From: Synergistes jonesii | GTDB lineage: Bacteria > Synergistota > Synergistia > Synergistales > Synergistaceae | Direction of reading: 5' to 3' | Assembly: GCF_000712295.1 (NCBI RefSeq) | Contig: NZ_JMKI01000037.1 | Span: 62,001-126,000 of the forward strand | Length of the DNA stretch: 64,000 bases | Shown here: positions 33,837-49,740 of the stretch, one piece after another | Layout: the number at the start of each line of letters is the position of its first letter | Numbering within the stretch: the first letter of the stretch is position 1 | The notes under the pieces: generated by a model | What the model was told of the DNA's origin: nothing | Databases searched by the model: none | The model's input: only the letters and a program-made list of their open reading frames with translations | Program-made: the position numbers and the translations under genes

Positions 33837-35144
33837 TTAAAATACAGTCTGTTCGCTGATCGGCGTCTGAAGGGCCTTTATCGCCTTTTCGAGTATCGCG
33901 CGCCTTATCTTTTTTTCCTCCTCCGGCGTCTTGGCCGGGTCTCCCAGAGGATAGGGTATCGCGACAGCCGGGACGATGCGGTTCGCACCCACGGTCTGCG
34001 AGATCGGGACTATCGTGCAGATATGCACGACGGGGATTCCGTAAGATTCGATAGCCTTTACCATCGTTGCGCCGCAACGAGTGCAGGTTCCTCAGGTGGA
34101 GGTGAGTATCACGGCGTCGACTCCGTCTTCCTTCAGCTTCGCGCCGATTGCCGTGCCGAATTTCTTCGCGTTGGCGATCGAGGTGCCGTTGCCGACAGTC
34201 GTCGAGAAGCTCCCGTAGAGCTTCTTGAATACGCCCTCTTTTTCCATTTCGCGCATCACGTCTACCGGCAGGACGCGGTTCGGGTCCGCATTCGCGTAGG
34301 TCGGGTCGTAGCCGCCGTGCGCCGTAGCGTAATGCTCGGGATCGGCGCTCATTACGCCTTCTATGCCGTAGGTGCCGAATTTCATCGCGCTCGACGCCTC
34401 GATGTGGTCGGGGTTGCCCTTCGGCACTATGCCGCCCGACGTCACGAGCGCGATCGTCGCGTTCTTCATATCCTGGACGGGAGCGCCCGGCGCCACGCGG
34501 TCGAAGCTCGGCATCGGATACTCCGTTTCAAACGCCTCGCCCTTCAATTTTTTCACGAGCATTTCCACGGCGCGCTCGGCTCCGCAGCTCTCGCGGAAGA
34601 AGTTCACGCGGACGCCGCGCGGCATGTAGCCGCCCTCCTCCGGCGAGCCGGGGTCGCCCTTCGTCTCGATCAGCCTGAGGACGAGCTTCGCCATCGCCGG
34701 GACCGCCGTTTTGATGCCGCGGGCGTTGTCCGCGGTCGGGACGATGAAGACGGCTTTCCTGAACATATCGGCGCCGGGGTTTTCCTCGTACATGCCCGAT
34801 ACGGCGGGAATGCCGAGCTTCTTCTGCACGGCGTCGGCCACCCCGCCGGCCGCCGTGCCGTAGCGTCCGGCGTTGAACGCCGGGCCCGTGACGACAGCGT
34901 CGGGCTCGAAGGAGGCGATGAGTTTCAATATTTCGTCCGTCGCCCGCTCGATATTCTCCGCGTAATATGTGTCACCGCAGATGACCGTGCCGACTATCTC
35001 GGCCTTCTCTCCGAACTCCCTGCTGAAAGCCAGCCCCGGGCCTACGGCGCCTTTGCGCGCTTCGGGCTCGACGTCGGCCTTTTCTTCGCCGCCGATGCCT
35101 GCGAAGAACTGGTTTATGTAGTGTACGATTCTCTTCTTTGTCAT
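33837..35144 (-). CDS. grdB: Glycine reductase component B, selenoprotein GrdB
   Basis: GrdB is the selenium-containing chain of substrate-specific protein B, which binds the glycine Schiff base and passes the carboxymethyl group to protein A. The reading frame crosses an in-frame TGA (34094-34092) that must be read as selenocysteine at residue 351: LTST-Sec-GTCTRCGATM is the conserved GrdB site. The product is 435 residues. The C-terminal part continues with GIPVVHICTIVPISQTVGAN. I start at the ATG at 35144 (MTKKRIVHYINQFFAGIGGE). Standard gene calls split it in two. Confidence 0.95.
34064..34094 (-). promoter_or_regulatory. Selenocysteine UGA and SECIS-like hairpin in grdB
   Basis: On the mRNA strand the UGA is followed after 11 bases by a perfect 7-bp stem TCGTTGC/GCAACGA (34080-34074 and 34070-34064) with a GGC loop. 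Position and size fit a bacterial SECIS element bound by SelB. Confidence 0.75.
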
Positions 35145-36983: not shown

Positions 36984-37097
36984 ATGACGTGTCCAGAGCA
37001 CTGTCGAGCGCCAATCCTTATGCCTGAGAGTTTCAACCGCGCGGTCTTGCCCCTTCGGCGCCCGCGCCTTTGCGCGGGTCTCTCTTGCCGCCGTCAT
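36984..37097 (-). ncRNA. Glycine riboswitch (single aptamer)
   Basis: The mRNA strand carries the gcvT-motif core: GGCAAGAGAGACC, CCGAAGGGGCAAG, ACTCTCAGGCATAAGGA and CTCTGGA in order. P1 is formed by ATGACG and CGTCAT (37097-37092 and 36989-36984). I see only one aptamer. It lies between the promoter and grdX, so glycine should control the glycine reductase operon. Regulation is probably at translation, as no terminator follows. Confidence 0.93.
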
Positions 37098-44854: not shown

Positions 44855-45012
44855 ATACTCGATTCCTCGGCGGATACATCGCCGAAGCCGTCGGGAAGCG
44901 TCTCATCCGCGCCATTTCAATTATACATTAAAAGCACCGCCGGGGCGCAGTCCGCACAGATCAAAACAGATTTAGGCAAAACAGATCGGCTCAAAACATT
45001 GACAAAGTTGTC

Positions 45013-45225
45013 GGCAGGTGGTAGTTTAGTTTTGATATGCAATGTAGCATCTTAATAAAGACATATCCGCGGAGTTAGGGAATCCGGTGAGAAGCCGGAA
45101 CGGCCCCTGCCACCGTAATCGGCAAGCGGAGAGCGCGTAGATCGCTTCCGCAGACCGAGCCGCATCCAGCCACTGTCGAAAGATGGGAAGGCGCGGCTTG
45201 AAGGCCGAGAGTCGGGAAACCTGCC
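45013..45225 (+). ncRNA. Cobalamin (adenosylcobalamin) riboswitch
   Basis: The classic core is present: TTAGGGAATCCGGTGAGAAG, CCCCTGCCACCGTAATCGGC, the B12 box GCCACTG (45169-45175), and GGGAAGGCG. The closing P1 helix pairs GGCAGGT (45013-45019) with ACCTGCC (45219-45225). It controls the large surface protein downstream, presumably turning it off when cobalamin is plentiful. I see no clear promoter before it. Confidence 0.96.
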
Positions 45226-45290
45226 GCCGGATGTTTTGGCTTCAAATGCGCAGAGGGCGCACCGCGGCCGACCGACGGATATATATTTTT

Positions 45291-45326
45291 CGCGGGAGGA
45301 GGCGTCAGAGCCCCTCCCGCGTATTT
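45291..45326 (+). terminator. Terminator in the cobalamin riboswitch expression platform
   Basis: CGCGGGAGG (45291-45299) pairs with CCTCCCGCG (45313-45321), followed by TATTTT; outer ATATA/TATAT pairing can extend the stem. It lies between the aptamer and the start codon, fitting transcription attenuation. Confidence 0.8.
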
Positions 45327-45405
45327 TATATCCGGATCCAGGGCGGAGCCTTTTGCGCTTCTCCGCCGCGGACAATTTAAATCTCACATACAAGGAGGAC
45401 GAGAA

Positions 45406-48400
45406 ATGTGTAAACGATTTTATCTTCTCACGCTCGTGCTGGCGCTGTCCGCCGCGCTCCCGGCCTGCGCCGCGCAGAAGGCGGCCTGGATCGAAAGCGC
45501 GGACACGGCCTGGTACGAGAACGACAGGGAGGCGTCGGAATACGCGATAGACACCCCCGAGGAGCTCGCCGGGCTCTCTGTGCTGGTCGGCAGCGGCGAC
45601 GCGGAGGGAGCGAAGGTCAACTTCAACGGAAAGACGATACGCCTGGCTAAGGATATAGACCTCTCCGGCCGGACGTGGACTTCTATAGGATGCGGGTACG
45701 GCAGCTTCCAGGGGGTATTCGACGGGCGCGGGCACACGATAGAAGGGCTCGGCACCGTAACGCCCTTCGACGAACAGGGCTGGTCAAACGGTTACGGCCT
45801 CTTCGGATGGGTAAGCGGCCGGCAGGCCGTCGTAAAAAACATCAACCTTAGGGGCGTCGTCGCCGCCTCCGGCGATAAATGCTCTTCGCTTGGGGCTGTT
45901 GTCGGCGGCATCGATCAAAACGCAGCGGTCGAAAACTGCGTATTTTCCGGCGCGCTCAAAGGCTTCAGCGGCGCCGCGATCGGCGGCATCGTCGGTTATA
46001 ATTACGGTGGCAGCGTCCGCAGCTGCTCCGTGAGCGCCGACATCGCAACCGGCGCGACAAACGCGGAGGAAGCAAAAAAAACAAGAATCGGCGGCATCGC
46101 CGGCAGCTACGAATGTTACGAGGTCGGCCCATCCATTGAAAATTCCGTCTTTACAGGTTCCATCAGATACACGGACGGCTCCGCTTCGATGAGGGTCGGC
46201 GGCATTGCAGGCGAGAATTCTTCGGAACGCTGTATCATCCAGAACTGCGCCGTCTCCGCCGACATCGACGTATCGGGCGGCACATCGCCCTTCGGCTACG
46301 ACCAGTGGATAAACTGCGCCGGCGGCGCAGCCGGCTACAACGGCGGAACTATCAATAACGTAGCGGTGACAGGCTCGGTGAAGCTGCACGCCGACGACGC
46401 GCAGAACGACGTGGCGGCGGGGGGGCTTGCCGGAGTAAACGTCTCAGGACAGAACATCCGCATAGAAAACAGCTCGCTCAGCTGCACAGTCTCGGTTTCA
46501 AGCCCGAACGCAGAAAAAACCTGGGCGGGCGCGATAGCGGGTTACAACTACGTATCCTCGTGGTCTCCCCATCAGAACCGCGGCATGATAATCAACAACC
46601 GCTGGGTCAAAAAGAAGGGAGTGCCGAAAGCAGCGGCCGGAAATTATAATGAAATAAGCGCCGACATAAGAGAAGTCTGCATCATAAGCAACGACGCGGT
46701 GGCGTCGGATTCAAAGCTGCCCGCAGCCGCCGTGCTCACCGTGCCGCTCGTCAGCCTCACGGAAAACAAATCCCTCACGCTTGCGGCAACGGTGTACCCC
46801 GTGACGGCCTGCAACAAAGACGAAGTCACGTTCCTGTGGAGCGTGAAGGACGGCTCGATACTTTCCCTTTCGGCGGACGGCGCTTCCGCGTGTATAAAGG
46901 GGCTCAAAGCCGGCTTCACGCAGGCGAGCCTCACCTGCGGCGGCCTGCTCGGCGGCGAAAACAGCTATACTCCCGCCACCGGAGCTGCGGTATGCCGCGT
47001 CAACCTCGACGGTCTCAAACTCTCGCCCGAGGCGATATCGCTCGACGCATCCGGCAAAAGCGCGGACATCACGGCGGAGATAGCGCCGGATGCCGACATC
47101 CCGTCGTATCCGGTGCTCAAATGGACGTACGAAGTGGTCTCCGGCGACGGCGCAGCGGCAGACGACATCATCCTCTCCTTTGGCGGGACAAGCCTCGCGG
47201 CCAGCGTAACGCTGAAGAACCACGTCCCCGGCGCCGTCTACCGCATCACTGCAGAGGCGGTAGACGATTCCTCGCTCAAAGACTCGATCCTGCTTACCGC
47301 CGCGCCCTCTGCGCCCTCCGGCGGCTCCTCCGGCGGCTGCAACTCGGGCTTTGCGGCTGTAGCGCTGCTTCTGCCCTGCGCGCTGGCGCTGGCGGGAAAG
47401 ACAAAAAGGAAGAGGGCGGCTATGAAAAAGCCCCGTGCGGGCAAAGCCCTCCTCGTGCTGACAGCGCTGCTTCTTACGCTTTCGGCGGCTAAGGCTCCGG
47501 CGGCCGATTTCTGGAAGGCGGATACGGGCTGGTACGACGGCCCCGCCGCCGCCAAAGGCACCGCCGACGACCCCTACAGGATATCGGACGCGGAGGCGCT
47601 CGCGGGGCTCGCGGCGCTCGTCAACGCCGGCTCCGACGACTTCAAAGAAAAATACATAACGCTGACGGTGGACGTCGATCTTGCGAAAAAAGAGTGGATC
47701 CCCATAGGCTGGATGGTCGCCTACGGCAACCTCCGCGGCTTCGCCGGACACTTTGACGGCGGCGGGCACCGGATAACGGGTATGCTCATCTCCACCGGCG
47801 AGTATATGCCGAAGGGGGCCGACGGCAATATGGACCCCAACGGCCAGCGCAGCCACTGTACCGGGCTCTTCGGACACCTGCTGCCGACGGGCACGATACA
47901 GAACCTCTACTTAGAGGGCTCCGTCACCAATAAAGTCGACTCCGGCGCCGCCGGCCTCGTCAGCTGGACCGACGGGCAGGTGAGCAACTGCGTCGTCAGC
48001 TGCGACGTCGACGCCTCCGGCGAGGGGCGCTCGTATGCCGGGCAGGTAGCCTCTCTGGTAGGCGGCGGGCTCGTGCGCAACTGCGTCACATACGGGACGG
48101 TAAAATCGACCGTAGGAGCAGCCTACTCGGGCGGCATAGCGGGCTTCGGCTACTGGTACAGGGGCAATGTGGAAAACTGCGTCTCCATGTGCTCCTCTAT
48201 CACCAGCACGATGGACGCCGGCGGGATCTGGGGCGGCTTCAACTCCACGACGAAATACTGCGTCTCCGCCGCCGACTATGTAGAGGGCGACGTCAAATAC
48301 ACCGGCGGCATAGTCGGCGCCTTCGGATTCGGCTACACGGAATGCTACTGGCTCAAGGTAAAAGAGGGGCAGCCGGATGGCGGCAATCCGTCGATGGGCT

Positions 48401-49740
48401 ACGCCGAGCAGGGTAAAATAACAGACCCGGCGCTCCTGCCGGCGGCCGCCGTCGTCCTGGACACGGAAGGCTTCAAGACGTTAAAGACGGGCGAGAGCCG
48501 CGAGATAGAGGCGAAGGTCTATCCGCCGACCGCGGACGCCTCGGCGCTGCGCTACAGATGGACGCTCCCGGAGGGCCTTACGCTGCTCTCAGGCGCCGGC
48601 ACCTCAAAGATAACGGTCCGCGCCGATAAAGAGGGCTTCTATCCGGTAAGCGCGGCGGTCACCGGCCTGCTGGGCGTCGGCGCGGAGAGCGCGGACATCG
48701 CCCTTACGCCGGGAGGCATACTGAAAGTCGCCTCCAAAAAGGTCGCCGTTGAAAAAATAATGATCGGCGGCAGCGCCGAGGCCATGAGAGAGGGCGAAAG
48801 CCGCACCTTTACTGCCGCCTGCACCCCCTCGGACGCCGAGGGCGATATAAAGTGGACGATAGCCGCGGCGGGCGGCGGCGCTCAGGACTCAGACGTACAC
48901 CTCACGGAAAACGCCGGCGGCAGCGCGACGGTGACGCTGCGCCGCGCCGGCGGAACGTCAGGCGAATACAAGCTCACCGCGACCGACGAGGAGAGCGGCG
49001 TCTCGGCGTCGGTCACCCTCACCACTTCCGTAATAGAGGGAGAGGAGATATGGAGCATCCTGCCGATCGGCGACGTGATAACGGCCGACGTCGAGGCGGT
49101 AAAGGCGAACGGCATCAACTCATCGCAGCTCGACGACGTCGCAAAGAGCCTCGGCGCTTCGATGGGCTCCTTCAAGGTCAACGAGAGGGGCGTCGTCTAC
49201 CTGGAAGACGCCGTCTTGCAGCGGGCGATCGTGGACGCCGTCTCCGACGACAGCGTCGCGCTCGACCGCGCGGTATCGCTGCCGCTCTTCAGGGCGCAAC
49301 TTTCGACTGCCGGCGCTACGGCGGCTACGGCCTTCATAATAAGCGGCGACAGGCTGCTCGCCGATACGCCGCAGGAGGTCAGGCTCGTGAAGACGCGCCC
49401 CGACGGAACGGGAACGTTCTTCGCCTATGCAGCCGCCTCGGCAGACTACAAAGACGGACACTTCACGCTCCAGCGTATGGACGACGGCGTGATGGCGGCT
49501 GAAGAGGCCATAGAGGCGGACAAGAGCTACAAGCTCGTCGTCTACGTAAAGGACGGAGGGGATTACGACGTCGATTCCACGGAACGCTCCGTAGTAGACC
49601 CGCTGGCGGTCGTAAAGACGTCTAAGAAGTCCTCCGGCGGCTCGGGAGGCTGCAGCGCGGGATTCGGCGCGCTCGCGTTGCTGCCCGTCGCTTTCGCCGC
49701 CCTGCTGAGAAGGCGCGGCCGCAACGGCCGCCGTCAATAG
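45406..49740 (+). CDS. Tandem Synerg-CTERM surface protein (two proteins in one frame)
   Basis: One 1444-codon frame under the cobalamin riboswitch. Part 1 (residues 1-672) has a signal peptide (RFYLLTLVLALSAALPACAA), a GLUG-type beta-solenoid region (GGIVGYNYGGSV, GGIAGENSSERC), Ig-like domains, and a Synerg-CTERM-like tail: SGGSSGGC with Cys645, a hydrophobic helix and KTKRKR. Part 2 (673-1444) begins at once with an in-frame ATG (47422) and a second signal peptide (GKALLVLTALLLTLSAAKAP), repeats the same architecture, and ends in a second tail (SSGGSGGC with Cys1416, then LLRRRGRNGRR). GAGGG lies before the internal ATG, so part 2 may also be made alone. AAGGAGG precedes the first ATG. Ligand or partner unknown; the riboswitch hints at a link to corrinoid uptake. 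Confidence 0.85.
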   Translation: MCKRFYLLTLVLALSAALPACAAQKAAWIESADTAWYENDREASEYAIDTPEELAGLSVLVGSGDAEGAKVNFNGKTIRLAKDIDLSGRTWTSIGCGYGSFQGVFDGRGHTIEGLGTVTPFDEQGWSNGYGLFGWVSGRQAVVKNINLRGVVAASGDKCSSLGAVVGGIDQNAAVENCVFSGALKGFSGAAIGGIVGYNYGGSVRSCSVSADIATGATNAEEAKKTRIGGIAGSYECYEVGPSIENSVFTGSIRYTDGSASMRVGGIAGENSSERCIIQNCAVSADIDVSGGTSPFGYDQWINCAGGAAGYNGGTINNVAVTGSVKLHADDAQNDVAAGGLAGVNVSGQNIRIENSSLSCTVSVSSPNAEKTWAGAIAGYNYVSSWSPHQNRGMIINNRWVKKKGVPKAAAGNYNEISADIREVCIISNDAVASDSKLPAAAVLTVPLVSLTENKSLTLAATVYPVTACNKDEVTFLWSVKDGSILSLSADGASACIKGLKAGFTQASLTCGGLLGGENSYTPATGAAVCRVNLDGLKLSPEAISLDASGKSADITAEIAPDADIPSYPVLKWTYEVVSGDGAAADDIILSFGGTSLAASVTLKNHVPGAVYRITAEAVDDSSLKDSILLTAAPSAPSGGSSGGCNSGFAAVALLLPCALALAGKTKRKRAAMKKPRAGKALLVLTALLLTLSAAKAPAADFWKADTGWYDGPAAAKGTADDPYRISDAEALAGLAALVNAGSDDFKEKYITLTVDVDLAKKEWIPIGWMVAYGNLRGFAGHFDGGGHRITGMLISTGEYMPKGADGNMDPNGQRSHCTGLFGHLLPTGTIQNLYLEGSVTNKVDSGAAGLVSWTDGQVSNCVVSCDVDASGEGRSYAGQVASLVGGGLVRNCVTYGTVKSTVGAAYSGGIAGFGYWYRGNVENCVSMCSSITSTMDAGGIWGGFNSTTKYCVSAADYVEGDVKYTGGIVGAFGFGYTECYWLKVKEGQPDGGNPSMGYAEQGKITDPALLPAAAVVLDTEGFKTLKTGESREIEAKVYPPTADASALRYRWTLPEGLTLLSGAGTSKITVRADKEGFYPVSAAVTGLLGVGAESADIALTPGGILKVASKKVAVEKIMIGGSAEAMREGESRTFTAACTPSDAEGDIKWTIAAAGGGAQDSDVHLTENAGGSATVTLRRAGGTSGEYKLTATDEESGVSASVTLTTSVIEGEEIWSILPIGDVITADVEAVKANGINSSQLDDVAKSLGASMGSFKVNERGVVYLEDAVLQRAIVDAVSDDSVALDRAVSLPLFRAQLSTAGATAATAFIISGDRLLADTPQEVRLVKTRPDGTGTFFAYAAASADYKDGHFTLQRMDDGVMAAEEAIEADKSYKLVVYVKDGGDYDVDSTERSVVDPLAVVKTSKKSSGGSGGCSAGFGALALLPVAFAALLRRRGRNGRRQ

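Follow-up and report, generated by a model that had tools for sequence, protein, structure and literature searches.

Loci controlled by cobalamin riboswitches in Bacteroides couple the TonB receptor BtuB to the cobamide-binding surface lipoproteins BtuG, BtuH, BtuJ and BtuK (available text of PMC10404256, PMC12751083, PMC13398666 and PMC6143338), and BtuG is a surface β-propeller (available text of the first three). Cobalamin riboswitches are OFF switches as a rule (excerpted text of PMC11477304). With regard to anchoring, the proteins handled by MYXO-CTERM/myxosortase sorting bear a tail that combines a cysteine, a run of hydrophobic residues and a basic terminus (available text of PMC11980579). 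The string 'Synergist' is absent from the available text of the four Bacteroides papers and 'Synerg' from that of PMC11980579, and the accessible part of PMC6593275 has nothing on GLUG or Synerg-CTERM proteins. In the literature searched, outside of which most subscription papers fall, there is no report of a link of GLUG or Synerg-CTERM proteins to cobalamin, and the term 'Synerg-CTERM' appears nowhere.

Comparison of these systems with a locus in a 64,000-nucleotide stretch of Synergistes jonesii DNA (the window) and with its counterparts in the Synergistota reveals a shared plan, in that a cobalamin riboswitch, a TonB receptor and extra exported proteins lie together in the Synergistota receptor operons, as in the Bacteroides BtuB-BtuG loci. 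However, LLFT, the second surface protein of the Synergistota receptor operons, falls below the DUF5074/BtuG cut-off and lacks a cysteine after its signal peptide; the Synergistota tails are of the Synerg-CTERM type as against N-terminal lipids; and no GLUG protein figures among the components named in the available text of PMC10404256, PMC12751083 and PMC13398666. The Synergistota module keeps the plan but differs in its protein families and its anchor; it would therefore work like the Bacteroides loci, and the tests applied give it no place in the BtuG family. The 'new system' suggested by the first-pass annotation also lies close in plan to the BtuB/BtuG/BtuH/BtuJ loci. The window riboswitch resembles other RF00174 members in being a full-length match over the gathering score with a terminator-like platform, but differs in presumably controlling a lone GLUG surface-type protein. 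Similarly, the window tail shares the composition of MYXO-CTERM, but comes from another phylum, where the corresponding tail model is TIGR04564. If our reading is correct, the Bacteroides principle of placing a TonB receptor and capture proteins of the surface under B12 control extends to another phylum, where both the protein families and the anchor differ, and two unstudied families, the GLUG pair and the LLFT propeller, become candidate corrinoid binders.

The riboswitch and the GLUG protein of the window

The aptamer occupies positions 45002-45242 of the plus strand and matches the Rfam model RF00174 from end to end (model 1-189 of 189) at 74.8 bits (gathering score, 31.5 bits; E=1.3e-16), bearing out the cobalamin riboswitch of the first-pass annotation. 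Reading of the sequence 5' of the aptamer reveals a promoter-like TTGACA, separated by 17 nt from TAGTTT (44999-45027, plus strand), and the identical string also precedes the switch of a receptor operon on contig C31 of the same genome. Downstream lies a probable intrinsic terminator (about 45291-45331, plus strand), which could constitute the expression platform: a 31-nt hairpin of -25.7 kcal/mol is followed by the U-rich tract UAUUUUAUA, and the stretch is equalled by just 1 of 100 dinucleotide shuffles. The aptamer's own terminator, likewise claimed earlier, is upheld as a probable one. A consensus scan for promoters and terminators on the plus strand returned no match, missing both the promoter-like string and the hairpin. 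A hairpin is present 41-76 nt 3' of the aptamer in all 12 module switches examined; 11 of these hairpins are stronger than 99 or more of 100 dinucleotide shuffles and the remaining one, from genome G125, is stronger than 92.

A ribosome-binding site (AAGGAGG, 45392-45398, plus strand, by sequence reading) precedes the ATG at 45406, which begins a single open frame of 1444 codons (45406-49740, plus strand). This being the next frame after the switch, the earlier statement that the switch leads straight to a large exported protein holds, with export predicted from the sequence. The whole protein matches the GLUG motif in Pfam (PF07581) with 38.1 bits against a cut-off of 20.5, and PKD_6 is also matched. 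GLUG motifs are widespread and occur in proteins with other functions. The protein stands alone behind its switch, with no receptor in its operon.

Examination of the frame shows that it contains two complete units, each running from a signal peptide to a tail, a feature absent from the first-pass annotation. The first, GLUGN (residues 1-672; 45406-47421, plus strand), has a signal peptide, GLUG repeats and a Cys-hydrophobic-basic tail; the second, GLUGC (47422-49740, plus strand), opens with Met 673 (nt 47422) and a signal peptide of its own, and continues through GLUG repeats and an Ig/PKD-like part to a further tail. The two units are mutually related, sharing 28% identity across a pair of aligned stretches (E=2e-10). 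A structure model of GLUGC, built from two sequences, had a mean pLDDT of 36 and was set aside as uninformative. Against the curated cut-off of 22.5 bits of the Synerg-CTERM model TIGR04564, the internal tail scores 18.9 bits (47326-47376, plus strand; G000:C37:109326-109376), the terminal tail 21.6 bits, just under the cut-off (49639-49716, plus strand; G000:C37:111639-111716), and the whole protein 18.0 bits. The same model assigns 42.6 and 29.5 bits to the tails of a 68%-identical relative in genome G134. The window tail resembles the Synerg-CTERM family, with the window copy itself below the cut-off. The C-terminal tail described by the first-pass annotation is present, but 'sortase-like' is a loose term for what is a Cys-hydrophobic-basic type.

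Receptor operons and recurrence of the GLUG proteins

The source genome encodes 8 cobalamin riboswitches, and the genes behind them were named by means of reference proteins and family models. Four of the switches head genes for methylmalonyl-CoA mutase, the cobaltochelatase CbiK, an aconitase-like hydratase and a BtuFCD-like transporter, the last named by eye from its sequence. The other 4 of the 8 lead to Synerg-CTERM-type proteins, namely those in the window and on contigs C53, C38 and C31, and these four regions together account for 10 of the 18 matches (E<=1) to the Synerg-CTERM model in the genome. On C53 the riboswitch is followed by GLUGN, GLUGC, a BtuB-like receptor and LLFT, in that order, and this GLUG pair is the closest paralogue of the window protein (42% identity). 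The C38 region encodes a receptor and LLFT, and that on C31 a receptor, LLFT and further exported proteins.

The receptors of these related operons contain both plug and barrel domains and find BtuB as their top PDB matches. Their top NCBIfam model is TIGR01779 (TonB-B12), with 160.8 and 163.4 bits, far below the equivalog cut-off of 599.7. LLFT belongs to no known family and was detected in 41 of the 185 genomes of the phylum (E<=1e-15). In genomes with a full switch list, to which three sub-cut-off switches were added, 22 of 34 listed LLFT matches (of 67 listed overall) follow a switch at a distance of no more than 10 kb. A 17-row LLFT profile matches Kelch propellers (E=6.7e-7), suggesting that LLFT is probably a Kelch-like β-propeller, as BtuG is. 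In a fold comparison with an LLFT model of mean pLDDT 43, BtuG chains are in the tied top rows (Z 13.2-13.5, rmsd 4.3-4.6, 269-287 residues), along with unrelated propellers, namely amine dehydrogenases and NirN/NirF; Foldseek with the same model recovers mostly propellers with low TM-scores. Given the poor model and these low scores, the tentative fold assignment is based on the profile match, and the model serves as a pointer. Placement of LLFT in the DUF5074/BtuG family was rejected on account of scores under the cut-off: only 1 of 13 proteins matches PF16819, with 12.2 bits against 27.2, and none of 60 genomes of relatives has a PF16819 match over the cut-off. Moreover, the alignment has no cysteine at the start of mature LLFT, the signal peptide ending in an A-x-A-type site as against the BtuG lipobox. 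As a separate observation, G125 encodes an 836-aa protein in which LLFT is fused to a GLUGC-like part, between a receptor and BtuF/BtuC-like genes (L091:7252-9762).

A search of the 185 genomes with the window protein recovered GLUG relatives at E<=1e-20 in 17, the source genome included, most of them weak, making for a patchy distribution; neither of the two other genomes of the genus had one at this threshold. Riboswitches were listed for the source genome and the other 16 genomes with a match. Among the 32 GLUG matches overall, 14 of the 18 with at least 105 bits have a cobalamin riboswitch upstream on the same strand, no more than 15 kb away, as against 2 of the 14 below 105 bits, a line that was set post hoc with the scores already seen. 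Of the four strong exceptions, two belong to a G034 contig whose end lies a short way upstream of them, and the other two are deeper in the G037 cluster (16 and 22 kb). The G134 relative has a switch directly 5' of it, 239 nt distant, and its cluster has three switches, which respectively head LLFT and a receptor; GLUGN and GLUGC; and GLUGN, GLUGC and LLFT. The GLUG genes share a same-strand run with a receptor on C53 and in G135, G167 and G037, and adjoin a receptor in G134. The G037 run (L126; G037:C1:1326617-1354698, a genome taken as Fretibacterium fastidiosum) is headed by a single switch, has assembly gaps inside it, and presents a receptor with several LLFT and GLUG genes in alternation.

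Among the Synerg-CTERM matches listed for G134, G135 and G037 (75 of 89), genomes selected for holding GLUG relatives, 14 of 75 are found at most 10 kb downstream from a switch; shifting the positions of these listed matches gives a mean of 0.92, and none of 5000 shifts reaches 14. A separate survey covered 60 hand-picked switches from other genomes, those with GLUG matches being left out and some being sister species or short contigs. A TonB receptor is present at 18 of the 60 switches, with LLFT at 6 and without it at 12; all 6 LLFT switches thus have a receptor, and a GLUG relative is found at 0 of the 60 in this GLUG-excluded set. No Rfam match occurs at the weak GLUG loci L096, L097 and L098 or at the Lachnospiraceae GLUG loci L127 and L128, indicating that linkage to a switch is not a general feature of GLUG proteins. 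The first-pass annotation had asked whether Synerg-CTERM/GLUG proteins recur behind cobalamin riboswitches, and they do: behind 4 of 8 switches in the genome and in several genera, with BtuB-like receptors.

In a tree of 44 switches, comprising those inside the fetched stretches, and with a bootstrap that had not settled, the majority of the switches that head receptor/LLFT/GLUG operons cluster in a single 15-row group of modest support (82/81), which stands apart from the mutase, hydratase and transporter switches. The GLUG switch of G143 and the receptor switch of G037 are not part of this group. The window switch and that of the C31 receptor operon form a pair with support of 100/98 (92.5% identity over 227 nt).

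Proposed function of the GLUG proteins

The first-pass annotation had offered corrinoid capture or surface adhesion as the function of the window protein. As the link recurs within the genome and in several genera, along with BtuB-like receptors, we favor corrinoid capture, adhesion being less likely. We accordingly propose, with somewhat better than even confidence, that the window protein is a B12-repressed accessory surface protein of corrinoid capture, filling a BtuG/BtuH-like role by means of other families; the company of receptors, the likely propeller and the near-identity of the window switch with that of a receptor operon make this the likeliest candidate function. Weighing against it are the occurrence of GLUG motifs in proteins of varied function, the isolation of the window gene, the scarcity of GLUG relatives and the low score of the receptor under TIGR01779. 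Given the terminator between the aptamer and the gene, the simplest reading is that the GLUG protein is made at low B12. With B12 plentiful, the aptamer would bind cobalamin and transcription would end at the hairpin, as presumed for an OFF switch; with B12 scarce, the RNA would be completed and the two-unit GLUG protein produced. It could then be exported via its signal peptide and held at the envelope, presumably on the surface, by the Cys-hydrophobic-basic tail. There it might hold corrinoids or hand them on to the BtuB-like TonB receptors that are encoded elsewhere in the genome under the same switch class.

The GLUG proteins could instead be adhesins, made at low B12, that bring the cell to corrinoid sources such as producer cells, host mucus or particles, with no contact with the corrinoids themselves. 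GLUG repeats, Ig/PKD-like parts and a tail would suit an adhesin, the window gene is without a receptor, and the matches of GLUGC to PDB profiles are confined to one chain of a beta-1,3-glucanase, a major capsid protein and an IgA1 protease, the last weakly matched. However, the placement of GLUG genes in the same-strand run of a receptor, or adjoining one, is more in keeping with a component of the uptake machinery than with an adhesin, and we regard adhesion as unlikely. It is also conceivable, albeit with a low probability, that the window switch is a recent duplicate whose control has little or no function, and that the gene is a decaying dispersed copy which has lost a stop codon. The near-identity of this switch with that of the C31 receptor operon, the isolation of the gene, and the joining in one frame of two units that are separate genes in G134, G135, G167 and C53 are consistent with such duplication and decay, but the G134 relative likewise has a switch directly in front of it, and the window retains an intact aptamer, hairpin and ribosome-binding site along with an uninterrupted frame of 1444 codons.

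The fused frame itself raises a question of form that is compatible with any of these readings. GLUGN and GLUGC are separate genes on C53 in the same genome and in G134, G135 and G167, a TAG stop lies between the two units in the G134 relative, and the fused form is seen in the window copy alone; the fusion may be genuine, or may reflect a lost stop or a base error. Were the frame to encode a processed double protein, the inner tail would be cut or anchored and each message would yield two surface proteins. Both the inner tail and the inner signal peptide are recognizable in the window copy, but this copy is the sole fused one, and a misassembly or wrong base at the junction, or a restart at ATG 47422, 3' of a purine-rich stretch, accounts for the fusion equally; hence, we consider such processing doubtful. 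Returning to corrinoid capture, a bolder version, which we put forward as a tentative possibility, is that GLUG proteins with Cys-type tails are a new Synergistota class of surface corrinoid-binding proteins that, with a BtuG-like propeller from a different family, feed BtuB-like receptors, and that the window pair left a receptor operon, copied the receptor's riboswitch and came to be made as one double protein.

Other riboswitch-linked genes

Several further associations emerged from the switch lists. Methylmalonyl-CoA mutase, itself B12-dependent, lies behind a cobalamin riboswitch in the source genome (L009:4887-7411), the reverse of the usual logic, and does so likewise in G134, G135, G164 and G167 and at 8 of the 60 surveyed switches. 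In the source genome (L011:4412-7214; G000:C31:204411), G134 and G135, a cobalamin riboswitch is found 5' of the aconitase-like hydratase (PRK11413 model), followed by a gene that by eye resembles isocitrate dehydrogenase, perhaps forming a bypass at low B12; the hydratase switches of these three genomes constitute their own group in the switch tree. The 2.3 Mb genome of G143 (genus g10) has 15 cobalamin riboswitches. Elsewhere in the window, a glycine riboswitch (37002-37097) and a SECIS_4 element (34054-34091) both lie on the minus strand, and perhaps belong to a glycine reductase selenoprotein operon.
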